Assembly (NCBI GenBank): GCA_963669155.1
Contig: OZ022597.1
Span: forward strand, 8,941,250 to 9,005,249
Reading direction: 5' to 3'
DNA length: 64,000 nucleotides
Source of the DNA: Arbacia lixula
Taxonomy: Eukaryota > Echinodermata > Echinoidea > Arbacioida > Arbaciidae
Every line of letters starts with the position of its first letter. The first letter of the stretch is position 1. Below are positions 5,820 through 48,700 of this stretch, one piece after another. Under the pieces are notes generated by a model that saw only the letters and a list, made by a program, of their open reading frames with translations, did no database searches and was not told the origin of the DNA. The position numbers were made by a program, and so were the translations under genes.

Positions 5820-6960
5820 CGTCTTTGTTAAGAAAGGAGACCTATGTCCTTTCAGGTTCCATCGCTGGTAATCATCGATGATTGTTGGATAGAGGCCGGT
5901 AAATCTACTCTACTCAAAATTTTACTCTATTAACTCAGCGTTTCACATAAAAACGAATGGGTTTATATTGAAATTTCGCCCTATTGCCCAGTTTAGCGAA
6001 CATGGTAAAGAATAAAGATTGATTTCATGCATGTCTTTTAGCTCAGTAGCATTGTGTTCCTCTTCCCCCTTATCTCTCTAATCCTTCTTTTCTCAGCCTA
6101 CTCAATATATTTTTTTTCTTTTCATGCGACTTATTTCCCCTTTGCCATTTTTGTTCTTCCCTTCTTCCCTCCCGCTCCCCTTTTATTTTATTTCCACGGG
6201 GGCTATCAAAAAACAATGTCATTTTGTGACCCGAAGGATTTCCTCCGCCCCAACAGTTTTGTACGAAATATAAGGACTTCGCAATTTATGTGTTCATGGA
6301 CGATAGAGGGCAGCAGATGTCTTTTGCCAGGAGAAACATTAAAACTGTGCTGTTTTGCCATGGCGTTCGGACATACTCAAAAACTATGTAAATAGAACTA
6401 ATTATTTAAACATTTATACCTTTTCTCCAACTTGAAAGATATATATATATATTTATATCTCTCTTTCTCTCTTTGAAACAAAAATTGCATGCAAATATTG
6501 CTTACCATATTGACCACAATTATCATTATGTACTGTATAAACCTCGTATTATGAGGTCAAGTGCATTCCTATTAACATGTGAAAGAATGATATGAATACG
6601 TAGTTTATACATAATCTTCGTAGAAATGATCATGATCCTGTAGTGTGGTCTCATGAAAATCTAAAAGACATACCTCAAAGCCAGTGGCAAAACTAATGTA
6701 AACATATTCGCCCCAAACTCGCTTGAAAACAAACAATGTTCAGCTTTTTCTCAGTCTATTTCCGCCCTCTCCATTTTTAGTGGTGGGACGCTGAACTATT
6801 TCAGATCAAATACAAATGCTTATCAACGATATCGCAACAAATATTCCGTGCCTCGTTATGGACAATTCAGGTATGCTCAGAAAAATGATGACTGCACGCA
6901 CGTAGACCTTGTGATCATTAGGGACGTATCGAATGCACGTTCTCTACTGTGAACCGGTAT

Positions 6961-7110
6961 TTGATTACGTCATTGCACGGCACTGCGCATGCTACGGCGT
7001 ACGTCCACGATCTAAGACGCGATTAAAATTGGTGGATTCTACGTTCTGGATGTGCGGACTGAACGTGTTGACGTGTGGTTGGGAACGCGGAGCATGCGCA
7101 GTGGTCCGTA
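6961..7110 (+). promoter_or_regulatory. Promoter-like CpG stretch upstream of the ANK-DD gene
   Basis: Unusually CpG-rich for this AT-rich window. It carries TTACGTCA (6965-6972, ATF/CREB-like) and two copies of the NRF1 core in opposite orientation: TGCGCATGC (6984-6992) and GCATGCGCA (7092-7100). It sits 165-310 nt before the start codon. No TATA box is obvious. The function is inferred from position and motifs only. Confidence 0.35.
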
Positions 7111-7273
7111 TCGTGCGGGCAGACATTTTCTCAACAGCGTCCTAGATGCGCGTTCACTGAAATCGAAAAGTCTCTATTGCTCGAAGAGTGTCTCCAGTTA
7201 ACCTTTGTTCATGCAACATATCTACATAATTATAGCGATCATTCCTCATGGCCATGCTGGTAATTAAGCATTC

Positions 7274-7407
7274 ATGATGGAACTGAATGAAGCAGTAAGA
7301 AAAGGAGACTTAGATCGGGTGCGAGAGGTGCTGGAACTTAAAACCACATCGGATATCAATGGGACAGATGAAGCTGGTTTCAACGCCTTGCATTACGCTA
7401 TCCAGGG
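7274..7407 (+). CDS. ANK-DD gene exon 1: start codon, first ankyrin helix pair
   Basis: Begins ATG ATG GAA, with an in-frame TAA at 7265-7267. It encodes an N-terminal capping ankyrin repeat and the first half of repeat 2 (GFNALHYAIQG), then donor GTAAGC. It ends with two bases of a glycine codon that exon 2 completes. Either ATG could be used. Confidence 0.85.
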
Positions 7408-10400
7408 GTAAGCTACAAACAATACAATTTTGATATTTACTGTCGTCATGACTAACATATAATTTGGTATCTCTGATATTGATTTTACAATGTACACAGA
7501 CCATGAAAAGTCTTATAACACCGCACAATAGAATATAGAGAAAGTTAAATTATACCACTATGATGGATCATAATATTTTTTCATTTTCCATGGTTGGTTG
7601 TTCACATTTTAATTTTTATTTCAAGAGTACACAGTTATGGATTAACAGATGCGCTTGAGAAATATACATACTTTGTGCATTCGGACGCATGGTGATTGTG
7701 TTTGTGCACATGTAGGGTAAGTGTAGGGAATTGGAAACCGTACGGATTTAGAGACCACCAAGCTCGAACCCAACCCTGTCTGTCCGTGTTGGATGCATTA
7801 TTGTTATGTATTGCCATCTGTGGACACTGACAACACTCCTGCATAATTGTATGCGATTCATTTCGAAGACTAGAATGCGTAGAAAAATGGCAAGTTTACC
7901 AAAAATCATAATTTTGTTCGTAAAAGTTGCTCTGTTATAAGAAACAAGGTTTCACTGAATCTTGTGGTGTATGTAAATAGTTAGGAGTGGCTGGTCCAGA
8001 AAAGTAATATTTGTAGGCAATGGAGGACATCACGATGGGGTTGTTTATAGAGAACGTATTGTGAAATTAAGATTTAAGCTAGTTTTAATGTTTAATGACG
8101 GTAGTGTTAAACATTATTTAGAAAAGAACTAAATTTTTGGTAACACCATATGGTTGTATTCTTTCAGGTTATTTGACTATTGGACAGTTTTCACCAGTGT
8201 TTAAGGTCGTACAGTGTACGGCAGGACAAGAGATGCTTGATCAGTAGGAGTCCTTCTTAACATATGACTGGTCTGTATTATAACTAGTGCTGTTAAAACT
8301 GTTGTCACTTTTGCAAAATAATGAAAAAAAAATCAATTTAAATCAAGCTGAAATTGATATATTATAAAGTAAAAAGATATCATTTTTTTCCAGGCTACGA
8401 GCGAAGTTTTGGGACTTTTAATTAATTATCATTCATAAAAGAGTCCTAATGAGATTGACGTTTTTGAATAAAGCTGGAAAACAATGTACGTGTATCTGAT
8501 AATCAATTCAGAATCCAACAATGACCATTATGTATCACACCATCAATCCACTACCAATTGCCATCACAGTGTCATGTTTGTAGGTTGATATGTGTGATGC
8601 AAAATCGACATTGTTTTATTATCAATTACCTAATTCACACACATTTTCAAGTCAAAATTTGTCACAAAATGAAAGTCTAATTAAATATTTTGAAGATTGT
8701 TAAAAGAAAGGAAACCAGTAAAATGTCACAAAACCCTTTCCAAAAAATATACATATCGTGACTTTATGATGTGGCAATTTCAGCTTGAATTGAGTTGTAT
8801 CTTCTTTTAGATCAATTTTCAAAGCGTCAAAATTTTTCTTTAAAACCTAGTGCCTACGTGCGGTGCTCAAATCCTCTTTTGATATTGTTTAATTATTAAT
8901 AAACAATACATCATAAGTTAGTAGTATGTTTTCTGTTGAAATGAAGTTAGGCGGTGTTGACTTTCTGATTGGTATTGAGAGGCCACGTTGAAATAGCGTG
9001 GTTGGGGGGTTTCTTCTACCGCTGTAGCTTATTTAAAAGTCATTGATATATGGCAATCACGTGTCGAAATTTACTCAAACCCTTTTCTAGGTCGTTGAAT
9101 TAACTTATATAGTCCTCGTTCGCTTTGACAGTTGGGGGTATTTACACTTTATTTAGTTGTATTCATTTATTAGTTGTATTTAACCAGGGTGGCCCCTTGA
9201 GTGGTTAAACATAGTACCAAGGGACCCTACTTTGGCATTTTGACACTCAAAACCACATGGTTTACATACACATGACGCATATATGTAAATAACATGTGCA
9301 GTCCAGTGAAAAATATACATCATTAAAATTATATCGGGTAGACTTATATGTGGATGAGGCCTTTTTCATTTCGGCACAAATCATAACTCTATAATTGTTT
9401 ATCATGAGTAATAAGAATAGCCATAACTTTTGATTGAAAGGGTTTTGAGCAAAATAATTTGGCAGAATTTTTTGTTTACTTATTGACTAACTTCTGTGTG
9501 AAAATTAATCCAATTGGTCATACTTGAGTGAGCACTCATTAAAAGCAAAATTGTCATTTTTCAAAAGTCACAAGGGTGATTGTTTATGCCGTTTTAACAG
9601 TATATTTTGGCATTTCTTGTGCAATTTTTAAAGTGTATTCGCTCAACCGTAACAAGAAAGTTACTTTTTATGTTCAAATAATAGCTAATGTTACATCTTT
9701 GTCAAAATATCTAGAGTTTTATATTCTTTTTCACAAAAATAAAGGGTTTTTAAAAGTTTCAAACTCAGGAGGGATGAGTATTTTTTAAACGGTGCTCACC
9801 CAACCAGAGCAATGGGTTAAGTGTCGGGATAAGTGCTAGTGCATCCAGAGATGGATGATAAAAAATAAAAGGACATAAATTATGCACCAGAAATGGAATT
9901 CATTAAAAATTCATATGACAGAATCGCAAAATTACCCTTATGACTTTTGAAAAGTGACAATTTTGCCTTTAATGTGTGCTCACTCAGGCATGACTGGGTG
10001 GATTAATGTGGTTTTCACACGGAAGTTAGTCAATATGTTAAGAAACATTCCTGCCATATTATTTTGCTCAAAACTTTCTCGATCAAAAGTTATGCCATTT
10101 TGCTTAGGGGGGACTTACTTTTTTGTTGTGTTTAGATCAACCGTCTGTTAGTATTGCGCGTGAACGAAAACACAAATAAATAAAATTAACATCGTGAAAT
10201 AATGTAAAGTTCATCTGTCGAAGTAACTTTGGTTTGATTATCTAAAAATCTTTGACCACCCCTCACCCGAAAATGTACCTTGCATGTACCTTATATGGCA
10301 TGTCACCTGATATGAAATAAATTAGGCGTAGATAATTAAGTAAGTGCTTATCCCATTATAGAGATGTTACGATGCACAACAGCCAAAAAAGATAAAAAAA

Positions 10401-13400
10401 GAGAAATAGACTGGAAAGTGTAAACCGAGACAGTCTGATGTGTTACATCAGCACAGTTGGCTGAGGGATGAGTGCAAAAATGACAAAAACTATATATTGG
10501 TCGAAAATAATGTTATGATTTAAGATGTTTTGAAGTACAGGACATGAATCTAATGTGTCAACGACATACTGGTGAACACAGGTGTGTTCACGTTAAAAAA
10601 ATGTACGTCAAAATGGATAAGAGGCACTATTAAAGATTGTCCGTCCCTTTTGCAAGCTTAAAATTTGAAATCGTCTATCACGATCGTGAATTGAAGAAAG
10701 TGTGATTCAAGACCATTTCTAAGAATATAGCATGTTGTAGCTTTCTGTATATGTAAAAAATTTCAGCCGTTAAATTTCAAACCGACTTTTTTCGTACTAC
10801 GAAAAAAGTATTAGTCTTTGTTACAGTATCTATGTGGTTATTATGCATGTGTGAAATCCTAATTTTATGAGTAATTACCAAACGTTGGAGATGATTCCTT
10901 CTATAGAACAATTTTTTCACAATGGGTTTTATAATTTGATAAACAGATTAATCAATAAAGCAGATATTTCAACACAAACTGCTAGGAGCCTGAGGTAAAG
11001 ACTATTAATCAGACGTTGTTTACGTGCATTATTTCAATTTTACACTACATATCAGGTTCAAATTCTGAATATACAGCTTGCTAACACTTCTCGATATGTT
11101 TTTGCAATGTTTCGATGGTTTTGTGGTGATCTGAAAAAGGGACGGGCTGTCTTTAACGCCTGAACCATTTCTTGAAGCCAGGTCTCAGCTAACGGTCGAC
11201 ACGAGCCTCGACATTAAGTTTGCTGGTGGAAGCAAAATGCAGTGAAAGGAAAGAGGCTCGATTGATTATGCATTATCCATATTTCTGCGGACGAAGTCAC
11301 TTCTGTAAATAGGGGGCTGGTTCTGATGTACATGTACAATTTTACAAGGTTTCTATGTTAATGGACGTAAACGTGCGGATGGTAAAAGTTGTTCAACCTG
11401 TGCGTAGACGATTTTATTTCAGTAGATGCAGTAATCTTTCACTCGTATTTGCAGTATAATTGTTTGTCAATCCTTTCTGCGAATCACACTAAAGGTATCT
11501 CGTAATAGTCGGTTAATGATTATTGATATGAGATAAACAAGATGTACACATCGCCAAACATGATAAGGCGAAGCTAAAGTTCATCACCGTTGCAGTCCAG
11601 CTGATAAAGTGTTTTAAGTATTTGCCAACCTTGTCATAACATGTTACCGTTGTTTGTAGACAATAGTTTTTTGAATCCGTAAACATGCTGAAAGGGCACA
11701 TGGGAAACTCCTGCCCTACTCTGACAACAGGAAGCAAGTGACAAATCACTAAAATCTGGGTTATTGGTTGTCTTAGATTGTACCCAGCATTCCATACATA
11801 CCGCCAAAATCTGGACAAGAAATATCCATCTTGCTGCGAGATATTCAATCTATCATGATGTGGTGTTTCACTGATGCCAATGCAAGTGACAGACACATTT
11901 TGCTCATTTACAAGAAAAGACTCTTCTGTTAGTTGCTTCCTTTTGTCCGAGTACATGGAGTAGGGCTGACGTGCCCCACATACTCAATGCCTTGTTTTCT
12001 TATGATATATCATAAATCATTTACCTATTATTTGCAGCGATAGTAGTCACAATGCAGTTCAAATTTGTCTTAACAATTATTGATCTTAAAGAGACACGTG
12101 GGCCAGCTTACACATGGGGCCACATGACATACAACATCTCCGCAATATACTTATTTCCAGTTTAGCTGCTCTTATGCGTTTCAGTGGAAATTCAGGTAGG
12201 GCGCCCGGGCATTGATATTTTTGTAAACCGATGTCGAGCAAATTTTGACATTTATTTTCAATGGATCATGCCGAATCTAATGATGATAATAGTACTAATC
12301 AGTTCTTGTACAGCGCATAACACATACAGTAGCTTCGCATGTCCCTATGCACTTAGATGAAATTAAGAAATGAAATTAGAAAATAAGTAAAGAGTGTTGG
12401 GCACTGAGTTCATTACGTGTTAAACAGATACTTTTGTAAGGAAGTCTTAAACTTAGCTAAATCATGCATATTTCTCATATAATTAGGAAGTGCATTCCAA
12501 AGACGGACATGACGGAAGAGGCATGCGCAAATGAGCGTTCACCATTACATATATACTGCAAGCTTGCGTGACAGGAAGTGTGTTTGTGTAATGCTAAACT
12601 TATCATTTTCTCCCCAGCGATGTGGAATAGATGGAATAGATGGTTTTCATTTAAGAAGTGATCGTCGACACCATTGTGGTGTATAATGTCAGATTATGGA
12701 TAAATAAAAACAACATAAAACTTTCTCTTTATCTAAAAAAGTTGCAGCAGCTCTGAATTCTCGTGTTAGGACATGTAGGAAGTGGTCACATTTCTCAAGT
12801 CACCTCACAACGGGGCAAACACTTTGACATTAGCCGGTTTTATCTTTTTTGTTTGTTTTAGCAAAAATGTCTAGGCTGTGTAACCACAAAAATACGTTCT
12901 CTTGGGCAAGTCCCATTGTGAATATATTGCAAGGCGCAACTTGAATTTCCGTTGGTTTGCTTAAGCCGCTGAAAATTATAACAAATGAATGGCTCCGTAT
13001 CAATATCGAACGTTAAAGAGCTTGGGCCATGGACACTACTACAGGGTTCATTGAAAAAGGGATATTGATTAAAGGATGACCAAATAATACGTAAATGGAG
13101 GATATAAAACAAACATCTCATTGTCTTATTCGGGATCATTGTGGAATCTATCGATCCGCTCTGTTAAATGGAGAGCGTGGAGTACTATTTTCTCTCGAAC
13201 TTCGGTCTCGGGGGAAACAAAATTGCCTACGCCCTCCCCTCACCTCGGGAGCGAATAAATTCAACAAGATCCCTCACTATCATGAAATGTTACGAATGTT
13301 TCTTTGATTTATCTTCAGTAACTTTCATATATTAAGATTTTTTTGAGGAAAACGGTATCTCTAAAAGGTATGTTGCTCTTCACCCTAGTGGTGACAAATA

Positions 13401-13468
13401 TGGCTTATTTGACATACATCATGTACATATTCCATGTATACAATTCTATACATGTATTATTATATTAT

Positions 13469-13506
<38 letters not shown>

Positions 13507-16500
13507 ACTTCGATTATGTTTTTCAGACGGATCAGCGAGAAGCATTTACTTTTAGGACCCCTCGCCTTTTATACTACTTGGATATACAATGTTTACGAGA
13601 AGTTTTTACAGGATATTAATTAAAATGAAATGATATTCAATTATGTCACGAATCTCTGATTTAATGTAGCTGTAGAACAAAAATGTCCGAATGAAATTAT
13701 ATGTTTTCCTCAAAAAGGAATACAACACAAATGAAACTTTCATTTCCGTGAAATATAAATTCAATCCGTAGTACATTTGTAAGTGTCATTTTAATTATCA
13801 ATCCTGTCGCTTGATTTTTAATACAATTTGCTAATGTTTGCAACGCTCTTTTAGTGCCATTCTAATGAAGTTAATAGTTCTGTTAGAAAAAAGTGGAGGT
13901 TAGACAATTGACTTTCATAAAAAAAATCTTTGTTATCTCATGTCTGTAATATCATGATCTTCACGACCGACGTGTCTGTTTCTCTTTCACAGCAAACACT
14001 TTCCCATCGTTGAAGTTTTGTGCGAACACGGGGCGGATGTAAACAAACAAACGTCGTTGCGCTTGTTTAAAACGCCGCTCTATCTAGCAGTCGAAGGGGG
14101 AAGCCTGGATATCATAAAGCTTCTGATGACGAAACGGGCAGATGTTGACAAGCAAACTGATAGCGACCGGTGGAGCAGGGACGGAGGACAGACTCCTCTT
14201 CACTGCGCAGCGTACAAAGGGCGTCTCGAAATTGTGAAGCATTTGGTTGATGGAGGAGCAAGCATCAACGCCAAGGATGGGGACGGGTGGACAGCACTCC
14301 ACAGCGCCACCTTCTTGGGTCGTCAGGAAATCGCCGACTTTCTCATCAGTAAGGGATCCAACGTCGAAGCAGAAGACACTGATGGGGTAACAGCAGTCAA
14401 CTACGCCTCGGAACGGGGTAATCTGGATATGGTTGCGTTCCTGGCCCGCAACGGAGCTAGCTTAGAGAAGAAGGATACCGACGGACTAACACCACTCCAC
14501 CAAGCCGCGAGGAGAGACAATCTCACCGTTGTCCAGTACCTTATTGAAGGAGGATCTAACGTTGACGAGGGAGATAGCTATGGAGGAACGCCGCTTCACT
14601 ACGCCGCCAGAGAGAACCACCGTCGCATTGTCACCTTCCTGGTCAACAACGGGGCCAGCATTGATCAAGGTGATGCGGACGGCGAAACCGCAGTCCACCA
14701 CGCCACAGATAGAGGCAATCTCAATGTTCTTCGAATTCTTCTCGAAAATGGAGCCGACGTGAACAAGAAGACGGGTGATGGGTTGACAGCTCTGAAAATT
14801 GCATCAATGCGGGGCCACACCGATGTAGTCAGGTTCTTTTTACGGAAGGGCGCTCTCGTTGGGGAAGGTGACATCGACTACGCCTTCAACGACAGTGTCC
14901 GCAAGATCTTGTGGCGGTATGTAGACCAAATTGTCCACTAGATGAGGATGGCTTTCATTGTAACAAATTATAAAGGATGGAGAAAGTTACCTGTAAAGTT
15001 GTAAACTGAGATAAACTGGGGAAAGGCTGTGTGTTTAGTGTTAAGCGCGGTTCACTCTTGTTTGTGTGAGAACATTTAATTGATTTCCATACTTCACTTT
15101 GGAAATAAGACAGTAACCTTGAACGTTAGTAAAGTAGGTATCAACGTACTTGTGCCCTTGACATACATCAGAGTTACCATTTCCATAAGAAATATTGTAT
15201 TATGAAATAACATACGACAGCACACAAGACTGAATTTCTTCTTCATAGCTTAAGAAATTGGTGTCGACTCAAAGAATTAGAGAGACATCGAAGAAGTAAA
15301 TGCAAAATAGTGACAGAAACTGTCTGTGTCATGTTCGGATATTCTAAGTAAAATTATGTGTTTGCCTGTACCATAATGTTGCAGAAGATTAATCATGAGC
15401 CCCTTATCACTTTAAAAGAAGCATAACGACGAAATGTAACAATCAATCACGTATTCATTATGTTTTAAAACATATTTTATTCTTCTTAGATTTCAGAAAG
15501 ACGGGGTCATCCTAGATGAAGATGATGAGACAGATGATGTGTTTGACGACGACGAATGTGGTGGCACACCGACAGAGGAAGAACTCATGCAGGTTGCAGA
15601 CACCATCCAGTCTGTCTTCGAGTGCTGGTCTTTCTGCAAAGAGCTTAAGATGGATGACGATATCATAGCCAATGCTCTCCCCATCTCAGACACGGCGCGA
15701 CCAGCGAGAGAAATTCTACGGAAGTGGGAGGGCGGTATCAAAAAGAAGTCGGAGAAGAAGAGGATACTAAAGACGCTAGACGAATACGATCTGATAGGAT
15801 CTACTCGAGGTGATTGTATGAATAGTGCTAATTCAGTACAATTCGAAAGAAATGTTCACCCGAACGAGATTTTTTCTTCCTCTTTTTTTAACTACCGTTA
15901 ATGGATTATTTTTTAACATTCAATAGTTAGATCATTCCTAAACAAAATGACACATAACATAAACCTAATCAATTTCATACTATTTACTTGTTGGTAATTT
16001 ATATTTCATACTAAGTTCTAGCCAGACGTAAGCACATCGTTAGAATTAAGAAGCAAACGCATAAGCTAACATGAATGTTTGCCAATTTTCTTAGGACTTT
16101 CATTTGAAGACATCATCGGTCAAGTTGCACGGACGGTCGCATCTGTGTCACAGCTGATGAAAATGTGCGCCACGCTAGGTATTGAGGCAGAAGAGGTGAT
16201 ACACGTCATCGAGAGTACAGCCTGCCCCCCTCAACAGAAGATCATTGACTGCTGCCTCGTCTTGTTGGCGCAATGGGTCAAGGATGGCGGTAAACGCGAC
16301 GATCTTCTGCAGGGACTACAAGCGCGACATTTGAATGAGTCAGCTGAAGTTGTTTCCTCCGGTAATAATCAAGACATATATTCTTAAATTCAGATATGTT
16401 TCCAACACGCACAATTAGATTATATATTATAACAACAAGAATAATACTATCTTTAAACAGATGTTTTTTCAACGTATAAGTAATTTGAGCTAATAGATTT

Positions 16501-19500
16501 ATCATCATTTGTGTTAACTGATAACATCTCGTGTTTCTGCTGAGAAAGGAAGTATACGAGACGTTGGAATCGAAAAAAAAACCCACGAAAATTGCCGTAT
16601 TCTAATGTGCTTTAAAAACTAAGGTTTTTTTCGTGAATTTATTCCTGACCTTGTTTCAACCCAACCTACATATGTCTGTTTTATTGTTTGTTTTAATCTC
16701 AGCCATCCAGCAGCTGCCTGACTCGGTGGAGACCTTCTCATTCTCCTCGGTAGGACACGAAGGAGGGAAGATCGAAGTAGGCGACGGAGATGTCCAAATG
16801 ATCGTCCCTCAAGGTGCCTTGCCTCAAGAAGTATGCGAGGTTCTTACCATCAAAGTACCCGACCACATTTCAGAAATTCCAGAAGACCTAGTGACAGAGG
16901 GTGAATTCCAGCCCTCGCCGTCAGTGCAGTGTTCTCCATCTGGTCTTCACTTTACAGAACCGGTCAAGATTATCATCCCTCACTGCATGAACTTGAGCAA
17001 GGTTACGGACAAATCTGAGATCATACTGTACACCAGCGATGAATCAGGTAACAGCAATGTACATATATATTCATTATATAGGGTACAAGTTATCACTGAA
17101 TACCTCTTGAAGCTCCAATCGAATATTGTTATGTGATAGTTGAAATTGGGAGAAGTCATATATTTATGTAATTCATTTTTTTGTACATACAACATAAATG
17201 CAAATGTACAGTCCAAATAAATTCCAAATAACCATTTTGATGAATATCGTTTATAAAAAACTAGAATGAGGACAGAACCAAAAGGTTGAAAAAAATGTCC
17301 CGTAACATATTGAGAAGATCATAGGAAATTATTTAAGGACAAATATATTAAAAAGTACAAGATACACAAACAAATATGTAAAATAAAAAAGCATGACATC
17401 CCGTATGTTCTGTAATATCGTAAACTGAAAAAAGCGATCCATTCAGCTTTAAATATGCTTATTTTGGCTTTCTCGGTAATCCTAAAAATCAGCTAGACAT
17501 GGAAGCAGCACAAATTGACACTTAATACATTTCGAGTATTTGATTTCCTTTCCTCCGTCTACGTTCTGATACAGGAACCTATACTAGAGAAGTGCTAAAA
17601 CCTGAAGATTACAACTTGTCTGAAAACGAAATTGAAGTAAACGTCCGCCATTTTTCCAACATCGGAGTAAGCCTATCAAACATAGGTAGCAAGCTAGAAG
17701 TCCTCAACGCCATCAAGTTCGGCTTGCTTCCATATCACCCCGTCTACATGCCCGAGACGCGGAGACCGATACTTCAGCTTTACGTCTACCACATGATGAA
17801 GCGGAATGAAAAGGTACGTTGAATAATTGTCAACTTGGTTAAACACATTTTGCGACGACTTGCATTTAACCAGCAGTAGAGCGTATAAGTTTACTTTGGT
17901 GATAATTCAACTTCACAGTGACGTATTCATTAAATACAGCATGACATTTAGCTGGCTTCTCAAGCTCGCCATTCTTAAATGCAAAGTTGATTTTTTTATT
18001 TCAAAGCTGGCAAGATTTATGACGGATATCCCTCATAACAGCAATGATCCGATTGAATAGCATAGAGTTTGATGTAAAAAAATAAAGATGTTAGGCAACC
18101 CCAATAAAAATCCAAAACATAACGTAAAGGTTAATATACAACTTTTCAACGAAACTCTTTCCCGAATAAATAATCTATATGCAAAGGGGCTTTCACAGGG
18201 AACTGTAATTTACCTTTAATCCAATTACAATTAGTAATTTAGGTGTTTGAAAATGTTTTTGTTGTTCCGGGCAAATTCAATATATGCAACTTGAAATGAA
18301 TATAAACAGATATCGTCATTAGGTGGGGTTTTGTATAAAGCCTGTATAATTTCGTGAGGATACTCCTTCTTCAACTTCATGGTGAAACGCCAAGCGTTAA
18401 AATCTGTTTTTTTTTCATCAAAAAAGAAAATCGTTCGACAGCTTAAAAAGCTGGGACAGAAATATCGAAAGGCTACCGCTGCAATGCAGTTGATCATGGA
18501 ATCAGATGACGACCTCACCATTTCATGTTTCGATGGAACTAACGAAATAGAAGAAAAGGTAAGCCATGATTTTCTTTTATTCAAGTATTTCAACGGATAA
18601 CACTCAACGGATAATGTCATCACCCAATTGAACCAACTAGTAGCAAGTATACATGAAAGCTAAATTCACACGTGTCTATAAGTATTAGGTGATGTCACTC
18701 ACATGAAGCGTTATCAATTATCGTGTTGAAAGCCCGCTCATCGATTCATCAGTATGCATCTGGTCACACATTTCACAGTTAGAGGGCCTTTGTTGGAAGA
18801 ACAAAGAGCTCACTTCGCCTAGTTGTGCATTTGGATACAAATGTGTAATCATCAATCAATAGGCCTTCATGTTATGCGAAATAAGGGGTGATAAAGTACT
18901 TCATCCATGAAGGTGTTAGAAAGAAGAAGAAACTCAGACATAATATTCAAACATATTTATGAGTATCACAGCGTTGTAAAGAATTTCAGAAGCATTCCAC
19001 ATTCATGACAATGCTTTAATGTCCCATGCTAAGCACTGACATTTAGCGGATGTCATCCTGAAAAGAAATATTTTTAAACGCCCATTTTATCTCTAGAAGC
19101 TTTGTTGTTTATATTTTGTTTTTGAAAAATTCAAGGAAGTTAAGGGCAACACTATAAAAATCCTGTACTCTGCATTTTTTCAATTTAAAAAAGTGATAAG
19201 GAATACTTAAAATCTGATTGATAACATTGTTTTATTACTTACAAAATTGACTACTTCCTTACTATTCGACATGTTGTTTATTTGTGGCATTGAATCATCG
19301 TAAAAAAATGAAATTTTGAGCTTTGTACTTTCATTAACAGTGCTTTTGCGTGCAACTGAGATATTTCACCTGAAAAAACATGTTTATTTTTGCTTGCTGA
19401 TATGTGGTATACTCATTTAGATATTGATGCGGTTAGCAGAAGTGGACAAGCGAAATGAGACCATACATCTTTTTGTTTTCTCTGACAAGCCGTTGCCACA

Positions 19501-22500
19501 CAGTCATGTTCGTAATTGTTAAAACAACTTACAAGCACATGTGAAGAACACATAACTATTCAGCGGCGTGGAGTAAATATGGAGCATAGGTTCAATGAAA
19601 GAAAGTTGAGTTATAGCATTCCATATCCCTGCCTACTTTATGTATGGGATGTATGCCTCACTTCGATTAGCTTGTCGTTATCCTTAATGAATGAAAATTG
19701 AATGCAATTATAGAGAGTTTATTGGAAAATTCATATCAATATCTCATTTTCCTCATATTCTAGCTATCTTGTTCAAAGCTGATTCAGCGAAAGCAGAACA
19801 GACTAACGTTTGAGTTGGACTTCTCCGACCAGGAAGCTGGCACTAAGAACATTGCCTTGAAGTTATTTCAAGGTGATAAGGAGATCGAGTCCCAAGTGAT
19901 TACTACTGAACTGAAAGGTATTCATTTAGAAACTGGTTTGTTTGTTAATGAGTTAACTCAATTTTATTGCTTTTAAGAGAGAGGATTGTGTTTTTACCAC
20001 ACGTTTCTAGGTTAAGGTCTAATGTTGGTGGGCACAATCCAAACGTATTTACTGATTATTGGAAGGGAGAGCTTTTAAACTTTCCCATGGAAAGACAACA
20101 CTGATATGTATTAATAGCCACGCACCATTTGATTGTTATTGAATGATTAACGTGTAAGTGCTCGGTTTATATAACATGAACCTTGATACTGTAGTGCTCA
20201 CAATTGGTAGTACTTGTATTCTCATTGTTTTTGCTTACGTAAAAGAGTACCTGGGAATGGGCTGCTTATCATAAGTGTTATCTTTATGTTCAAAGACCGG
20301 CGATGGGTCTGGGAGAAGTTAACAAATGATGTACCTCACACCGTGTGATAAAGGATTTGTAAAAATATATCACTTATGTATCAAAGGCAAATGCAGTAGT
20401 TTTGGGAAATAATTATGGTTTTATTACGGGCCGATTACTATAACAAAAATGGTATTAGCCATCCTTATTTGTTCATAATTAACAAGCAAAAAAAAAAAAA
20501 AAAAAAGGGTGGGGGGGGGGGGGGGCTTGGTAGAGAATCCTGTAAACATTTCATTCTCTGACACCGAAACACGGATGACCAATATAGCTCAATAAGGATA
20601 TGAATATTCCATGGAAATGGAAGTTATTTGCGTTTCATCATGTTGTTACCTTAAATCCACTTTGAGACATATCAAGCAGGCAACAACTGTGTAGATAAAA
20701 AATTATTCGAGTTTTCTGTCTAAATAGATTTTGAATTAGATTCCGAAGTATCAATAGTTATGATAAAGCGGTGATCAGCCTCTAGGCTCCATGTTAGCCC
20801 GAGGCATTAAAGATTTACCACCACTGAAAATTTTCTTTTTACAAATTTTATACACACGCCTCTCTCCCAAAAGTATCATCTAAGATAATGATCACGCACT
20901 CTGACCACACCCATGGCTCATGGCAAAATACCTGCAATGTCGAGTAAGATTAATAGATTTCACTTTATTACACTGCAGAATCCAAAGCGGCATTGAAAAA
21001 AAGGCGGTAAGTATTTGCTCATTTTACTTCATTTCATAAATTACCATATTCATACTTTACGTCAGAACGAGCTTTCTAGGGCAACTTTAATTTACAGAGC
21101 CGAATTGTCCCTACTGCAGACTACTCATGAATATTAATGAGTCAGATTAAATGAAACTCTTCGGTTTTTGTTCCCATGTTGTCGTGTCTTAATCCGTGAA
21201 CTAGAAATAGCTTGCGTGGTTAAGTCGCTGCCCGGTAAGCAATAGATTGCTGGTTCAAATCCCATATGGTTCCAAGACTTTTTCTGACTTGTTTTTTCAT
21301 TCATTTACAGGATTGAGCACACCATCTTTATTACCTGGTGTATGTGTAACATTTCTTTGTTAATTCATCTTTGTCTTTATTTAGTTGAAAACTCCGCCTT
21401 TGCAATTTAGTGTTCAAAATTAAATAGGATATGATAATTGCTGCACTTTTCCAGTGAGATTGGTGACTGTTAGCAAAATGGAAACATTGTGATGGGTAAC
21501 CATGTACTCATTTTCAAAAAAGAAATAGATTATATGAAAAATAACACACAAGGATGTGTCAGTCTTACGTCAGTCCACATCTCACTGTTATTTTGACAAA
21601 TTAAATTATTTTTTTTTACATGAAAAGTGATCAATAATGTGGTGAAACGTCGATCAATAAACAAATAATTCATCAATTCACCATTGGGAGATATAGTTAT
21701 GTCTGGTAATCTAAATGCTAATAGTATGTTCAAGAATACTTAAATTTCGGTCACATGCCGGTTATTCAGGAAGGCTCTAAATGTTTATTTATCTTCAGTG
21801 TTTATTTTTCACAGTGAAATCAGTGTTCGATCTATTTCAAAGCTTAAACATGTAGTGTCGTGAATACTGTATATAGCAGTCAATGATATGAAGAAAAAAT
21901 CTTGCATTTTCACATGATTTTTTACGTTTACCATTCTTTCTTTGCATTTTGTAAAGCTTTATATAATTTATTAGGCGTACAGCGTACCCAGTGGTTCCAC
22001 GATTATCAGATTCTTAATGCGGATCAAGGATCAAATCCATTAATCTACACTCTTTTCTTGTCATTATAGTCGTTCCTCCGCCTCTGATCGGGGTAGACCT
22101 GCCAGCATAAACGAGACCAGCGTATCTAGCGAGACGCTTGACCCTTTCCACCAATACCTCCTCACCTTAGCAGAAGAAATTGATAACGACTTGATTATTC
22201 AATTAGGCGTAGCTTTGAAGTTCTCTATGGCGAAAATTAAGCGCTATATAGAGACAAACAAACTCGGGGCAACTGTTTCTGCGGACGGCACTTTTCATAT
22301 GTTGTGTGACTGGTACCGCAAACCAACACGTGACAAGATTGACGAGTTACGCTCGGCCCTCATCCAAGTCGGATTAGTAGAGCTCGCTGAGTCATATTTT
22401 CCGAACGCAGCAGAATCTCAAGAGGCGAGTGAAGGTACCACAGAGAGTACAGATGTTAAGCGAGTTCCGTTTGTCAGGAGTGACAGTATGGTAAATGAGC

Positions 22501-22595
22501 TCGCAAACCGGCCAATGTGGGCGGCTATGGCGGGAACGGTCAACAAGAAATATCGCGGTGTGTACAGTTTAACGCGTGCATCCTCCAAGAAATAA
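7274..22595 (+). CDS. Ankyrin-repeat / death-fold / ZU5-UPA-death domain protein (whole gene, 10 exons)
   Basis: Exons: 7274-7407, 13993-14916, 15490-15809, 16095-16361, 16703-17047, 17575-17813, 18427-18558, 19764-19917, 20979-21006, 22070-22595. All junctions are GT-AG with matching phases, and the sum (3069 nt) is an open frame of 1022 residues plus stop. An in-frame TAA lies three codons before the ATG. Domains by residue: ankyrin repeats about 1-345, acidic linker 355-375, death-fold-like 1 about 378-458, death-fold-like 2 about 461-535, ZU5 about 560-660, UPA about 665-837, death domain about 870-955. No signal peptide or membrane segment, so it should be cytosolic. ZU5-UPA-death is known from UNC5, PIDD and ankyrins, where it controls death-domain assembly; the role here is inferred from that. 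The domain order is not that of any of the three. An unspotted extra exon in the 6.6 kb first intron is possible, but the exon 1/2 join already completes an ankyrin repeat. Confidence 0.9.
9421..10131 (-). mobile_element. Long-TIR MITE family 1, copy A (one end truncated)
   Basis: About 710 bp, reverse-complement relative of the element at 58422-59186 over its length. Both arms contain CAAGGGT-AATTTT- and GTGAGCAC-type blocks in inverted order. The right end is GGGGGGACTTACTTTTTTGT plus TGTGT; the matching left 30-40 bp are absent. Non-coding; inside intron 1 of the ANK-DD gene. Confidence 0.75.
10630..11156 (+). mobile_element. MITE family 2, copy A
   Basis: 527 bp with inverted ends TTAAAGAttgtCCGTCCCTT / AAGGGACGGGctgtCTTTAA. 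Internal perfect hairpin at 10785-10809 (12-bp arms ACTTTTTTCGTA, one-base loop). Reverse-complement relative of 55765-56292. Non-coding. Confidence 0.8.
12413..12640 (-). mobile_element. LINE fragment: C-terminal end of an ORF2
   Basis: Minus-strand translation reads RHVRLWNALPNYMRNMHDLA, then KFKTSLQKYLFNT and stop, preceded one frame over by CNGERSFAHAS. This is the conserved end of CR1/L2-type reverse transcriptase ORFs, of a different family from the LINE at 46990. Frameshifted and 5'-truncated; it lies in intron 1 of the ANK-DD gene. Confidence 0.75.
13472..13504. repeat. (TA)n microsatellite
   Basis: About 16 AT units in intron 1 of the ANK-DD gene. Confidence 0.95.
13993..14916 (+). 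CDS. ANK-DD gene exon 2: ankyrin repeat block
   Basis: A single large exon holds the rest of repeat 2 and repeats 3 to 10, each with the G-x-TPLH-x-A and ADVN/ASIN consensus at about 33-residue spacing. The acceptor is TTTCACAG. The donor at 14917 (GTATGT) was chosen because it joins in frame to the next exon. Without splicing the frame runs 24 nt further to a stop at 14939-14941, which would give an ankyrin-only product. Repeat 3 has an atypical start and repeat 4 follows a small Ser/Arg/Asp insertion. Confidence 0.92.
15490..15809 (+). CDS. ANK-DD gene exon 3: acidic linker and death-fold-like domain 1
   Basis: Starts in phase after TTCTTAG. The first 30 residues are very acidic (runs of D/E), followed by about 80 residues with the spacing of a six-helix death-fold domain: EELMQVADTIQSVF, WSFCKELKMDDDII, then REILRKWEGG and KKRILKTLDEYDLIG. 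The tryptophan in the ILRKW segment matches the conserved position before helix 5 of death domains. The exact subclass (death, DED or CARD) is not clear by eye. The donor is GTGATT. Confidence 0.8.
16095..16361 (+). CDS. ANK-DD gene exon 4: death-fold-like domain 2
   Basis: Follows acceptor TTCTTAG and keeps frame. It encodes a second helical module: FEDIIGQVARTVASV, LMKMCATLGIEAEEVIHVIE, then LVLLAQWVKDGGKRDDLLQGL. The LAQWVKDGG segment parallels the death-domain helix 4-5 region and LRKWEGG of exon 3, so this looks like a tandem copy or relative. It ends phase 1 at donor GTAATA. Confidence 0.78.
16703..17047 (+). CDS. ANK-DD gene exon 5: ZU5 domain
   Basis: Acceptor AATCTCAG. The encoded stretch GHEGGKIEVGDGDVQMIVP, followed by QGALPQE and later GLHFTEPVKIIIPHC, is a textbook ZU5 beta-sandwich: a G-G-x-x-x start, then IPxGAL, then F-x-x-PV-x-x-x-xPHC. 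Only one ZU5 is present; ankyrins and PIDD carry two, UNC5 carries one. It ends phase 1 at donor GTAACA. Confidence 0.9.
17575..17813 (+). CDS. ANK-DD gene exon 6: start of UPA domain with HFS tripeptide
   Basis: Acceptor CTGATACAG. It encodes the first beta strands of a UPA (UNC5-PIDD-Ankyrin) domain: EIEVNVRHFSNIGVSL, then PILQLYVYHMMKRNEK. The HFS tripeptide is at 17649-17657 (residues 689-691). In PIDD, HF|S sites in the ZU5/UPA region are autoproteolytic; whether this one cuts is unknown. It ends phase 0 at donor GTACGT. Confidence 0.88.
18427..18558 (+). CDS. ANK-DD gene exon 7: UPA domain, middle
   Basis: Encodes KKLGQKYRKATAAMQLIM, then DDDLTISCFDGTNEIEEK, matching the middle of UPA domains. 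The acceptor chosen is the first AG after the T-rich tract (ATCAAAAAAG). An AG at 18440-18441 would also keep frame and drop five residues (KIVRQ). Donor GTAAGC. Confidence 0.8.
19764..19917 (+). CDS. ANK-DD gene exon 8: end of UPA domain
   Basis: Acceptor CATATTCTAG, no internal ATG. In frame from exon 7 it reads KQNRLTFELDFSDQ, then KNIALKLFQGDKEIESQ: the last UPA strands. The phase 1 end joins the 28-nt microexon. Confidence 0.85.
20488..20525. repeat. A19-G-rich homopolymer pair
   Basis: A-run directly followed by a G-run broken by one T, in an intron of the ANK-DD gene. Confidence 0.9.
20979..21006 (+). CDS. ANK-DD gene exon 9: 28-nt microexon
   Basis: Bounded by CACTGCAG and GTAAGT. 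It encodes ESKAALKKRR across the junctions, a basic linker between UPA and death domain. Its length is not a multiple of three. Exon 8 ends in phase 1 and exon 10 enters in phase 2, so skipping it would break the frame, which supports it as real and constitutive. Confidence 0.8.
21171..21362 (+). mobile_element. tRNA-derived SINE, copy 1
   Basis: TAGCTTGCGTGG (box A) and GGTTCAAATCC (box B, one change), followed by a shared body (TTTTTCATTCATTTACAGGA, then CCTGGTGTATG). Same family as the copies near 59.6-60.0 kb. In the last intron of the ANK-DD gene. Confidence 0.72.
22070..22595 (+). CDS. ANK-DD gene exon 10: C-terminal death domain and stop
   Basis: Acceptor GTCATTATAG. After a Ser/Arg-rich linker it encodes a death domain: FHQYLLTLAEEIDNDLIIQL, then LKFSMAKIKRYIETN, LCDWYRKPTRDKIDELRSAL and VGLVELAESYF. 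The W in LCDWYRKP is the conserved helix 5 tryptophan. A 70-residue basic/Ser tail follows, ending at TAA. Confidence 0.9.
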
Positions 22596-22661: not shown

Positions 22662-22667
22662 AATAAA
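22662..22667 (+). promoter_or_regulatory. Poly(A) signal candidate, ANK-DD gene
   Basis: AATAAA 67 nt past the stop codon, followed by a T-rich stretch; the nearest canonical signal. Confidence 0.55.
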
Positions 22668-31736: not shown

Positions 31737-34700
31737 CTAAACACAGATACAATGGTTAAGGGGGAAGGAGTTAGTCATCTTAATCATAACCTTTAAAGCA
31801 CGTTAAATTACAATACATAATACATATATTTCTAGATAATTGAACTTGCACAAAAGAATGTATGGCAATATTTCAACATCGTAGATTATAAAGGCGAGTG
31901 AACCATGACTGCACCCATTACGATTAACCAATCAGAGGTGTAACACGCGATCTGTTACCTTGGCTACAGCATTCAAATCCCCCAAAAATATTTCTTTAAA
32001 CTTCTATATGCCAGATAACCTGTTGCTTTATGGGATGTCTGTATAGTCCTTATGAATAAATACATGTGGCACATTAAAAGCACTAATCCGTTCATATGTC
32101 AATGTAGCCTAACTACAATGATCGACTTTTTTCGCAGTTTATAAACCCGCCCTAAAACATAAGTGGTACATGAGGGCGATGAGAGAGTACAACTGAAATA
32201 CCTCTGTCTGGACCATGTAGTTCCTCTGCATTCTCATCTCACACACCATACTGAAGATATCGATGAAATCGTTGTCTTTGATGTGCTGGATGAATCGATC
32301 GAGAACAATGAAGACACCAGTTCTCCCAACGCCAGCACTGTATAAACAACATACATTTTTTAAACCCCCATCTTAATGGTCATCAAAATAATGATGAACA
32401 AATTGGAAGTACTACAGATTATTTTACAAATTTTTTTTACAAAAGCCTACCGTCGATACAGTATGACACGGAAACCCTAAAAGGTCAAATACAAACCCAA
32501 TGCAAAGTAATCAGCAAGGAGATAAAATCAGTTATTAAAAACATGACAATAAAATATACCTCAATACTAAAAAGGACGAGAGGCAGCCGCAGACAGGGGT
32601 GTCACAACCCGATAGTAATTACGTACACCCTGATTTTGTTTTTGTTGAATTTGTTTAAGCCTGGAGGGCACTTCTTTACATACTTAAAGATTCTTTTTAC
32701 AAGGAAAGGGTAGTAGTTGAAGGGGGGGGGGGTAGTAGTGTCCTACCTGCAGTGCACAACAACGGGTGTAGTAGTGGATTCCATCTTGATGTGTCGCCTC
32801 ACTGACTTGACAAAATCAATGAATGACCAGCAGGAATCAGGGACGCCATGGTCGGGCCAAGCCGTGAATTGGTACTGAGTCACCCTGCGTTTCATGTCAT
32901 CCTGTATATTGTTTAAAGAAAAGTATTAGTATGCATGTAGTCTGAAAATTATATGGAAAAACTTTCTCGAGTTACTTCATATAACTGTTGCACACGCAAG
33001 AGGTGATGGGCATTGGATCGGCGCTTCGTAAAATGGCACACGAAATCACCACAGCCCCCCTCCCCGTGCTGTTACGGAGCCTGTACTGGAGGACAAGCTT
33101 TTTTGTACCCATAATCGTACAGATCTTAAAGGTATATACCCAACAAACCTCACCCAATATACATAATCGACATGACGTACCATTACATCGTAAATCTTTT
33201 TAACATCGATGAAAGAATAGGCATACAATTTATCGTCAATTTATAAAGGGAACATTTTAAAATAGAATGTCATAATTACCTTGATGAGTACGAAGTCCCT
33301 GGTAATGTAATCCCCATGATTTTGAACAGAGTGAACAGAAACCTGTATGGAGCCGTAGGGTTGAGTGGAATATGTCTCTTCCGGCCAATACTGGTGGCAC
33401 TTTTCCTGCAAAAAAATATAACATATGATTTTTAGTAGGACGCTTCCATTCAGTCATAACCAGTATCGTCAAGAGGTCTTCATTTGAAATATTGTACAAT
33501 TTTATAATGAAATTTCTTCATGAGACTTCATGATCAAATTTTGTCAACATTGCAAATTTATAGCGATAGGGGAATGTAAAATGTGTTTGGTGCAAAAAAG
33601 GGTGATCAAGTTCTTATTGTTTTAATTCTTTTCCACAAAGTATTGGAAATAGACAGTGTTGATATCCTTATAAGAAGCAAAGCAACACATTAAACAGTTC
33701 ATTGGAGCATAGCGATTTTGAAATTTACAACGTGTCTGGATAATCAAAATTTCATGTTTTAATTTGTCAAAACTTGCAGCTAAATCATAGCTAAAAATAT
33801 TTCCTTTTGAACATAAATAACTATCAACCTTATGTCCTTCAACGAGTTTTGTGAGCATGACAATTGTTGTAGATTTTCGTTCCCATATCATCCTCCACAT
33901 ATCGGCGACCGTGTTTGGTAGAGGTCCTTGGCACGAGATAAACTCTCTCGGAGAGTTATATCCAGGAATGTAGCTTGCATTGATGTAGTCCGTATCTGGC
34001 TCATCGTTCAAGGCGCCAAGCTTCACGCGGCAGTGCTCATCTGGGTGACATAAAATTAAAACGATATCATTTTCCTGGCTTATAACTAAAGCTGCTCTCG
34101 TTGGATGAACCACGAACACTTTAGGAACCTCAACTGCATGAACAATGTCACCAAAAATTATTGAATATTTTGCGTATCATAACCAAGTACTGGGTAAAAT
34201 GTACGGAACAAAAGTTAAATGGTCTACATGTATTCACAATTCCTAGATTAACAAAAATAGGAGGACCATCTACTTGTCTAATTTAGTACATCCATATCAA
34301 CCTTCTTGATTCAAAATATTTTTTACACATATTTACATAAAGACAGCTTGGTATGCTTATATGAAACCAACAAGCCTTTGATGTTTCATAGTCCGGAATC
34401 TGAGTTCACAAGAGCCAGAACATTCATCAGAAAGGTAAACAATATAAACTGGAACTTACATGGTAAGATGTTGGTGAACCTGTTCTTTGCAACATTCAGT
34501 TCTAGCTTGCCAGATATTATATCCTGATCTTTTCCAACATGAAGCACCTCCTGCAAAAGATAAAACAAATATTATAATGAGGATACTCCAATATTGCATT
34601 ACCAGAGTCAAAATGTAGCATTATATTACAAAATTCTTTGAGTGGGGATTTAAACAGAAAACAATAATACAGACAAGTCAAAGAAGGGTGCAAATGCAAC

Positions 34701-45778: not shown

Positions 45779-48700
45779 CATACTTCTACTTCATGATGTA
45801 AAAATTTCAGCTTGATTATATTTATTCGAGTTTATTTCTCTAAAGTGTGAAACAAGTATAAATAATAAAGTATTAACCGAGTATGGCCACTTGTTTGATT
45901 TAAACTATAGATTCACTAATAATTTGATTACTGTACTTTTATGTGTGTAAGAGCAAACAAGATCCCTTATCCACCACATGCTAGTTGAGTTAAGAGTTTC
46001 CAAAATAATGTTTACCAATTCATTTTGTGCCCGATTTTACGCCATTGTTGCTGGTAGCAGCTTGAACTTATGGCAAAGGCCTACCAGCTTTTATTTATTG
46101 GGAAACATGCAATTGCACGCCTTCCAATTTCTATTTATAAACTATTAAGATTTACCATTAATTTTGTTAATTATAAACCCTTCTTTGAATAACAGCATCT
46201 CTTTAATTCGACTTAAAGAATAGCTGATAGAAAAGTTATAATCAATGTCCAAACATTGTTATCTTTTATTTGTGAATCACATACCCGCCTCTCATTTTAC
46301 GTGAAAAGAATTCAAATAATTGATGACAAAAGGCCGTGATGAATAATCATAATATAATCATAGGAAACAAGGAAAATAATTGACTCGTGAATGACAAACC
46401 CGATGTCAGGAAAATCGCCGCGCTGTTCTCTTTAAGACCACTGATGCTTGTTACGACCATGCCGTAACGTTCACCAGCGACTTGGACATTCAGACAGAAG
46501 GCGATGTACGGCTGGCCAGCATAATCCTCGGTTGAGTTGATTAAAGAAGGACTCGCTGTTCCATTGCTGCAGGTAACCGCAAACATTGACACAATGCCCG
46601 TTGGCTTCAACCATTGTGATGAAATAGATGTGGTATTAGCTTCTCCCACCCGAAGGGACGCACGCTTCGGAACTATAAATATATCAAAAAAGCAAAACAA
46701 ACAGCGTAAGTACTTTCTTTTTAATAGTATTATACCCACATTTATGACGGAGATATTCCTATGAAATGTGCATGATGTTGATAATAGCTAATGTAATTTA
46801 GGAGTACAAAACAGGTGTATCCGTACACGATGTGTATGGGTGAGTTCGGGCCGACAAAAAAGGCCCCAAAAGAAAGATCTAGTGTTGCAAATTTAAGTTT
46901 AGCTTCATTAAGCAAGTACACGGACTGGTGCAATCCGCATAAAATTTAAATTTGTTGATACATAAATTTTTACTAGTGTTTAGATGAACCCAAAATGGTA
47001 AAAATTTTATCATTTGGACACTGTGTCATCAGCCATTCATGGAAAACACGCATATACTGCCCAGAAGAATTCAATCCTACTAGTGCACAAGGTTCTCATC
47101 AAACACAATGCTTAAGTTTTTTGCATTGTAATGCTAGGAGTCTCTCCAAAAACTATGAAAATGTGAATGTCTTGTTATCTTCTTTGACATTCAGTTGCTC
47201 AATTCTGGGCATCACTGAAACATGGTTAAATGCAAATTCTCCTCCACTTTTTACACTTGAGGGTTACAAGGCAGTTCGTAAAGACAGGGGAAAAGGTCGT
47301 GGCGGTGGTGTTCTCATGTATATTTCAGAATCATTATCATTCAAAATCAGACATGATCTCTCACTTCCTAGCGAAAGTGCAGAGCTGTTATGTGTTGAGG
47401 TTGATCTTCCGAAAGAAAAGAATTTTATTGTCTGTATAGTATATAGGCCTCCACATACAGATATTGATAGTTTTTTAGGTGATCTTGAATCGCTTATGGC
47501 AACCATCAATTCTTTGAATAAGTCTGCTTGTGTAATGGGTGACTTTAATATAGATTTATTGAGCAGGACTCCTAAATGCTCTTCGATTTCAAAATATCTA
47601 AGATTCCAATGCGTTTAATGTAATGATTGATAAACCAACTAGAATAAGTGAACAGTCATCAACACTTTTAGATAATATCTTCGTGAAAACTGACAAAGGT
47701 TATTCTCAATCTGGTTTATTTTACTGTGAGATATCTGATCATCTCCCTGTGTTCTGCATGTTATATGACGTACATACGATTGGAACTAAGAAAAAGGAAA
47801 TTGCCAAAAAAAAGATATATTACCGAAGAAAACATTTCGTGCTTAAATGATGACCTAAAGTCGGAAGATTGGAGTAGTGTGCTAGCATGTAATGATGCTG
47901 AGATGGCTTATGAACTATTTTGGAAAAAAATCTATCTCTATTTTGATAGGCACATTCCAGTTTTAAAGCAATCCAATAGTAAGAGTACAGGAAAACATCC
48001 ATGGATTTCTAAAGGTATTCTACGGTCTATTAAAAGGAGAAATGTCTTATACAAGAGAAGCAAAAAGAAACCTTCACCGGACCATGTTCATGAATACAAG
48101 AAATATCGAAATAAATTGACGTCAATTATCAGATCCTCACGAGAAATGTTTTACTCCAAACGGTTTGAGAATGCAAGTGGCAATATGTCTTCTACCTGGA
48201 GAATTTTTAAGGATATTTTGTGTAAGCGCAGCACGACTGAGGCCCCACAGAAAATGTGTCATGAAGATAAAGAAATCACTTCCGCAGATGATATTGCTGA
48301 TGCCTTCAATGTCTATTTCACTAATATAGGTCCAGTCCAGGCAAATAAAATAAATACAGAGGGAACTAATTATAGGCAATATCTTAGTGAGCCATCTGAA
48401 CACTCTCTTTTCCTTATGCCAACTGATTGCATAGAAGTACTTAATATAGTGAAGTCACTGAAAAACAGTCATTCTTGTGGTCATGACGAAATGAGTACAT
48501 CATTGCTGAAACAAATCATTGGTTCTATTGTTAGGCCGTTAGTTCATATTTGTAATGTTTCGTTGTCGACTGGTGTATTCCCATCACCCCTAAAATTGGC
48601 CAGGGTTATACCTGTTCATAAAAAAGATAATGTCATGAGTATCGCTAATTATAGACCAATCTCAATATTACCTAGTTTTTCTAAGATACTAGAGAGAGTT

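Follow-up and report, generated by a model that had tools for sequence, protein, structure and literature searches.

The stretch of sea urchin DNA analyzed here (the window: 64,000 nucleotides from Arbacia lixula, located at C22:8941250-9005249 in an assembly of 590 contigs that totals 607 Mb) raises the question of whether a block of ankyrin repeats and a ZU5-UPA-death domain region lying downstream belong to one protein and, if so, where such a protein came from and how it might work.

Gene structure and domain content

Ten exons with GT-AG borders on the plus strand, spanning positions 7274 to 22595, joined into a gap-free frame of 1023 codons with a single, terminal stop, as an earlier note that gave only the span and the exon number had proposed; the exon borders themselves were set in the present analysis. 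The resulting 1022-residue protein has, in order, about 10 ankyrin repeats (ANK), two death domains (DD; the first likely), ZU5, a likely UPA, and a further death domain, distributed over the following features.

7274..7407 (+), exon 1: start codon, one ankyrin repeat, and the beginning of the second; donor GGG/gtaagc
13993..14916 (+), exon 2: rest of the ankyrin repeats (Ank_2, E 1.4e-77); a phase-2 donor closes the ankyrin part
15490..15809 (+), exon 3: acidic linker together with the first module resembling a death domain
16095..16361 (+), exon 4: second death domain (paralogue profile, 30.6 bits)
16703..17047 (+), exon 5: ZU5 domain (PF00791, E 1.8e-16)
17575..17813 (+), exon 6: ZU5 runs out and the likely UPA begins (aligned as a profile with UNC5B 3g5b, E 8.5e-17)
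17649..17657 (+), codons of the HFS motif (His689-Phe690-Ser691), with autocleavage predicted after Phe690; aligned with QLG of UNC5B
18427..18558 (+), exon 7: UPA; the least certain exon, with a strong donor, a weak acceptor, and little or no homology support
19764..19917 (+), exon 8: end of UPA, matched by tblastn at E 2e-4 to 0.006 in four of the ten paralogous loci
20979..21006 (+), exon 9: 28-base basic linker; frame kept, GT-AG sites
22070..22595 (+), exon 10: C-terminal death domain followed by a tail and the stop codon (paralogue profile, 34.9 bits)

The ankyrin repeat that is split by the border between exons 1 and 2 was intact across the junction. When splice sites were scored with rough weights of our own and ranked against all 954 GT and 910 AG sites between positions 7000 and 23000, the nine donors ranked between the 92.8th and the 100th percentile and all but one of the nine acceptors reached the 89th or higher, the exception being the weak acceptor of exon 7 (70th), so that part of UPA is uncertain. 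Exon 7 and the 28-base exon 9 are the least secure parts of the model. Two AATAAA poly-A signals accompany the last exon, one at 22591 that overlaps the stop codon and one at 22662. No membrane-spanning stretch was seen in the 1022-residue protein, for which the top 19-residue hydropathy mean was 1.09.

Pfam searches of the joined protein clearly identified Ank_2 (E 1.4e-77) and ZU5 (E 1.8e-16 at residues 564-660), with no LRR or NACHT match, and the Ank_2 result together with the single ZU5 match at the locus agrees with the roughly 10 repeats and one ZU5 described previously. An HMM check of the remaining domains was less clear: Death reached E 1.9e-4 and 21.9 bits against a cut-off of 22.6 on the joined protein, with no single stretch passing and no match in exons 3 and 4 alone, in the part from exon 6 onward, or in exon 10 alone, and UPA had no Pfam match on the joined protein. 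Five of seven paralogue death-domain exons passed the Death cut-off and two fell just below it, one of these being of the pre-ZU5 type (21.4 bits, E 2.8e-4; the sole pre-ZU5 exon scanned). Direct Pfam calling of the death domains was set aside as too weak, and a profile built from 13 death-domain exons of paralogous loci was used instead, with 1000 shuffles per test exon.

With this profile, exon 4 scored 30.6 bits (best shuffle 8.3) and exon 10 scored 34.9 bits (best shuffle 5.4), whereas exon 3 scored 8.2 bits, below its own best shuffle of 8.3. Removal of the three pre-ZU5 exons from the profile left exon 10 at 33.3 bits, with exon 4 at 6.1 bits (one shuffle as good) and exon 3 at 1.9 bits (15 shuffles as good). 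A profile of the three pre-ZU5 sequences gave 33.5 bits for exon 4 (best shuffle 8.7) and 13.9 bits for exon 3 (best shuffle 6.7). Exons 3 and 4 are thus linked to death domains only by way of the pre-ZU5 paralogue exons. The closest of these were located at C17:13.26 Mb for exon 4 (z 15.3) and at C17:13.69 Mb for exon 3 (z 14.2, 0 of 300 shuffles as good). Across the whole genome, the exon at C17:13.69 Mb was also the sole other match to exon 3 (weak, E 0.035), and exon 4 had five other matches (E 0.004 to 0.09), all of them on C17 and each 1-4 kb ahead of a ZU5 match. For exon 10, a plain tblastn search of ten paralogous loci returned no match. We regard the ankyrin repeats, ZU5, and the second and C-terminal death domains as firm. 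Of the two extra death-fold modules claimed previously, the one in exon 4 is therefore secured by its 30.6 bits, and the one in exon 3 is likely a death domain, as judged from its 13.9 bits with the pre-ZU5 profile.

The ZU5-UPA module and the predicted cut site

A single-sequence search of solved structures placed ZO-1 first (3.6e-9) and UNC5B third (9.7e-7), both over ZU5 only. When a nine-sequence family profile was used, the best solved match was UNC5B (3g5b), with an alignment over positions 13-187 that ran from ZU5 into the UPA region of UNC5B (E 8.5e-17). This continuation provides the support for UPA, which likely follows ZU5 in the protein. The same alignment set the HFS of the window on the QLG of UNC5B. 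According to the available text of PMC3210808, Phe-296 of the F/S cut in CARD8 corresponds to Leu-677 of UNC5B, and each ZU5 of PIDD is followed by an HF/S site of self-cleavage. With UNC5B as the link in the alignment, the HFS in exon 6 therefore lies at the autocleavage position of PIDD and CARD8. This site, which was absent from the earlier note, is a stronger reason to consider a PIDD-like mechanism than the analogy offered there. The motif alone is no proof of cleavage, as CARD8 needs further residues; its cutting also depends on His-252, His-270, and partly Glu-279 (PMC3210808, same text).

We consider it somewhat probable that the locus is one gene for a soluble sensor or scaffold that cuts itself between Phe690 and Ser691 and holds a releasable UPA-death domain fragment. 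The ankyrin repeats would serve to bind a ligand or to guard a protein of the host, and the ZU5-UPA region would fold and cut itself between the two residues, as predicted from the presence of HFS at a known position. The expected products, ANK-DD-DD-ZU5 (76 kDa, acidic) and UPA-DD (38 kDa, basic), would stay associated until the N-terminal part was displaced, remodelled, or degraded, and the UPA-DD fragment thus freed might oligomerize via UPA and recruit death-domain partners in the manner of PIDD, which recruits RAIDD and caspase-2, and of NLRP1/CARD8. The two death domains of the N-terminal part could restrain the C-terminal one or recruit partners of their own. Cleavage, release, ligand, and output are all inferred by analogy with these systems.

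The distribution of the motif among related genes bears on this proposal. The ZU5 model found 49 matches in the 607-Mb genome, two of which, on C1, resemble the two halves of a single domain. For the exon 6 region, a profile made from eight training sequences returned 28 rows that represent 26 distinct sites (two loci appeared twice, and eight of the 26 were the training sequences); these come from chosen, fetched loci that are a subset of the 49 ZU5 matches, and some of the fetched stretches lacked such an exon. At the cut position, the 26 sites carry HFS (11), HFC (1), QLH (5), YCA (3), QLQ (3), YCS (1), ELQ (1), and RLG (1). HFS was kept in only two of the 13 ANK-linked sites that were read, that of the window and that at C25:101399 (L043), the other 11 having QLH, QLQ, ELQ, YCA, or YCS. 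On C18, an UNC5-like gene read by eye has QLG at this position.

In a tree of ZU5-UPA sequences, the window was located beside a group of genes from the same genome that carry QLH or QLQ, and the two together were split from all others at a support of 100; L001, an UNC5-like gene of this genome, grouped with UNC5B (support 97). A ZU5-only tree, which was weak, placed L005 (ankyrin-like by eye) beside the ZU5N domain of ankyrin-2, and the ZU5 of the window did not group with ankyrin ZU5N. We rejected the latter tree as evidence of origin, since the domain is too short and the ankyrin ZU5C lies on a long branch. The phylogeny called for previously was in this way obtained against UNC5B and, in the weak tree, against ankyrins, with the window grouping among genes of its own genome in the ZU5-UPA tree. 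The earlier label of an ankyrin, PIDD, and UNC5 hybrid, if taken as an account of origin, fits poorly with this placement and with the separate positions of the UNC5-like L001 and the ankyrin-like L005. HFS occurs in three separate parts of the ZU5-UPA tree, namely in the window and in two others, for which the simplest account would be an ancient motif with several losses; repeated gain is an alternative that retains some probability.

With HFS lost from 11 of the 13 ANK-linked sites read, the family does not need self-cleavage. Because most of the ANK-linked paralogue sites that were read lack HFS, the main rival to a self-cutting sensor is a non-cleaving clamp, in which the same single gene encodes a ZU5-UPA region that closes off the C-terminal death domain until ligand binding to the ankyrin repeats opens it, with HFS being a leftover. 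This arrangement is in keeping with the QLH or QLQ found at the cut site throughout the sister group and with the QLG of UNC5B, which apparently does not cleave. We nevertheless consider it rather unlikely, as the HFS of the window is intact despite a sister group without it, and as the tree shows the motif three times over, in separate positions and among otherwise dissimilar neighbors.

Two HFS-bearing genes elsewhere in the genome stood out. L002 (C8:22550940-22554191) is an intronless open frame of 658 residues that includes a hydrophobic segment, a ZU5, and, as read by eye, HFS at the cut position; we take it to resemble UNC5CL. At L009 (C17:20.06 Mb), an HFS-bearing ZU5 gene with no nearby ankyrin block among the matches listed is preceded, at positions 6546-7990 of the locus, by a long tandem array with the 15-residue unit STHVSQDDPTAGVPG.

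Linkage of the ankyrin and ZU5-UPA exons

A genome search with the ankyrin exon 2 yielded at least 176 matches at E values up to 1e-10, with 129 of 554 candidates scored. The best matches other than the window showed about 40% identity and were located in very long open frames of up to 3684 residues, including three that lie upstream of ZU5 matches.

C17:13238583-13248968, ankyrin open frame, 3684 residues, upstream of a ZU5 match
C17:13337761-13346340, ankyrin open frame, 3113 residues, upstream of a ZU5 match
C25:112776-122339, ankyrin open frame, 3479 residues, upstream of a ZU5 match

The second of these frames contains two stretches 1.2 kb apart with the same score, which suggests a recent internal duplication.

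The listed ankyrin matches were merged by hand into 27 blocks. Among the matches listed, a related ankyrin block lies upstream of 24 of the 49 ZU5 matches (that of the window is one of them), less than 20 kb away and in all 24 cases on the same strand, and none of the 49 has such a block within 20 kb downstream; 14 of the 27 blocks, including that of the window, are paired with ZU5 matches in this way. The remaining 25 ZU5 matches, which include UNC5-like and ankyrin-like genes, have no nearby ankyrin block among the matches listed. Two ZU5 matches 8-14 kb apart accompany 10 of the 13 other ZU5-paired blocks and a single one accompanies three, so the window, with its one ZU5 match, is unlike most ANK-linked loci. 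In the loci fetched, the two ZU5 matches of a pair are separated by death-domain exons and are followed by others, and each pair may be one gene. No ankyrin repeats were seen within 9.0-9.8 kb upstream of the ZU5 match in ten paralogous loci; the ankyrin exon of the paired loci lies farther up.

Splice sites are also shared across these loci. The ankyrin part of the window ends in ...VRKILWR, the last codon of which is interrupted by a phase-2 donor, and three other loci, ending in ...VRQMVLLR, ...VRQIILSR, and ...VRQMLLWR, have the donor sequence at the same place and in the same phase; within this stretch L039, which is among the three, contains a stop slightly before that point and could be a defective copy. 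The place and phase of the acceptor at the start of ZU5 are common to the window and six paralogous loci, and the place of the ZU5/UPA acceptor is common to the window and five.

These comparisons speak to an alternative with two adjacent genes, an ankyrin gene that ends at an in-frame stop (14939-14941) located 22 bases past the exon 2 donor and a DD-DD-ZU5-UPA-DD gene that begins near 15490. Weaker poly-A variants do occur between exons 2 and 3 (TATAAA at 14969 and AGTAAA at 15128, 15295, and 15347), and the linkage of ankyrin to ZU5 in this genome is known from neighboring exons rather than from transcripts. However, AATAAA and ATTAAA are both absent between these exons, the phases of exons 2 and 3 are compatible, four loci (counting L039, perhaps broken) share the place and phase of the ankyrin-exit donor, and 24 of the 49 ZU5 matches have a listed ankyrin block upstream on the same strand, which makes a pair of genes improbable. 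Because the ankyrin-exit, ZU5-start, and ZU5/UPA splice sites are common to paralogues, the in-frame stop is most likely intronic. The ankyrin and ZU5-UPA-DD exons are probably one gene, far likelier than two, and one transcript likely covers them all. The soluble, single ANK-DD-DD-ZU5-UPA-DD protein envisaged earlier is thus favored by the shared splice sites, the repeated order of ANK then ZU5, and the lack of a membrane span, whereas the caspase or NF-kB output that was attached to it is an analogy. Instead of a one-off hybrid, the gene looks like a compact member of an expanded ANK-ZU5-UPA-death domain family in the same genome, in which the other members have giant ankyrin exons.

Relation to known ZU5 proteins

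A scaffold or cytoskeletal adaptor like the true ankyrins, with no cell-death or immune role, would be expected to show the order ANK, ZU5, UPA, DD that the protein does share with ankyrins (PMC5135030, available text), but we consider this very improbable given the one ZU5 before UPA in place of the tandem ZU5-ZU5-UPA, the two extra death domains ahead of ZU5, the presence of HFS, and, in the weak ZU5-only tree, a position outside the ankyrin ZU5N group.

Ankyrins possess 24 ankyrin repeats and a ZU5-ZU5-UPA cassette (PMC5135030, same text); here the domains, with UPA as a likely one, follow the same order with about 10 repeats, one ZU5, and extra death domains between ANK and ZU5. PIDD1 is described as an autoproteolytic LRR-ZU5-ZU5-UPA-DD protein in the accessible portions of PMC3210808 and PMC9573974. 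Compared with that published description, the present protein likewise combines a repeat sensor, ZU5 with a likely UPA, a C-terminal death domain, and HF/S at the end of ZU5, but it has ankyrin repeats rather than LRRs, one ZU5 rather than two, and two death domains before ZU5. With the FIIND of NLRP1 and CARD8 it shares the position of the F/S cut, as aligned by way of UNC5B; those proteins end in a CARD and carry SFS, whereas this one ends in a death domain, carries HFS, and has no NACHT match. The core of ZU5, likely UPA, and DD is that of UNC5B, but UNC5 proteins are transmembrane receptors with extracellular domains and have QLG, and neither a hydrophobic segment nor such domains are present here. 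The ANK-ZU5 loci of the same genome (on C17, C21, C25, and C92) resemble the window in the ankyrin-exit site (three checked), in the ZU5 and UPA splice sites, and in related death domains, and they differ in ankyrin frames of up to 3684 residues, mostly two ZU5 matches, and the loss of HFS at 11 of the 12 sites read.

Related combinations have been reported. The consulted part of PMC8195603 describes TRADD-N fused to FIIND and to UPA-ZU5, and reports that TRADD-N is greatly expanded in marine animals, starfish among them, which is a related idea with another domain. An amphioxus kinase with ZU5 appears in the available text of PMC9573974, and combinations of NACHT and ZU5, from cnidarians and early animals, in those of PMC8260672 and PMC12909245; the available part of PMC10855541 held nothing relevant to the gene. 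Within the accessible portions of a literature mostly outside subscription journals, which makes for weak evidence, no description was seen of ANK-DD-ZU5-UPA-DD proteins other than ankyrins. As judged from its sequence, the gene fails the defining features of ankyrins, PIDD, and UNC5 yet shares their core, and no description of the same-genome family to which it belongs was seen in the literature covered.

The best-known self-cleaving switches of the FIIND type are those of PIDD, NLRP1, and CARD8. We put forward, tentatively, that the family may comprise lineage-specific cytosolic sensors for immunity or cell death, in which very long ankyrin arrays take the place of the LRRs of PIDD and NLRP1, and in which ZU5-UPA is self-cleaving in some members and has lost the site in others. 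If so, one genome would hold primed and non-cleaving versions of the same switch. Such a family, with ankyrin sensors, several death domains, and HFS present in some members and lost in others, would show how self-cleaving switches arise and vanish and would supply natural pairs of cleaving and non-cleaving candidates.

Farther along the window, a run of minus-strand exons (33625-62286) resembles fibronectin-type repeats by eye (the one that was scanned had no Pfam match), and the exon at 33625-34176 (minus strand) encodes a protein-tyrosine phosphatase domain (PF00102, E 1.2e-26). These exons are probably a receptor-type phosphatase gene next door. A non-LTR-like retroelement with a long open frame and a reverse transcriptase (PF00078, E 8.4e-34) lies on the plus strand at 46977-49945, between those minus-strand exons.
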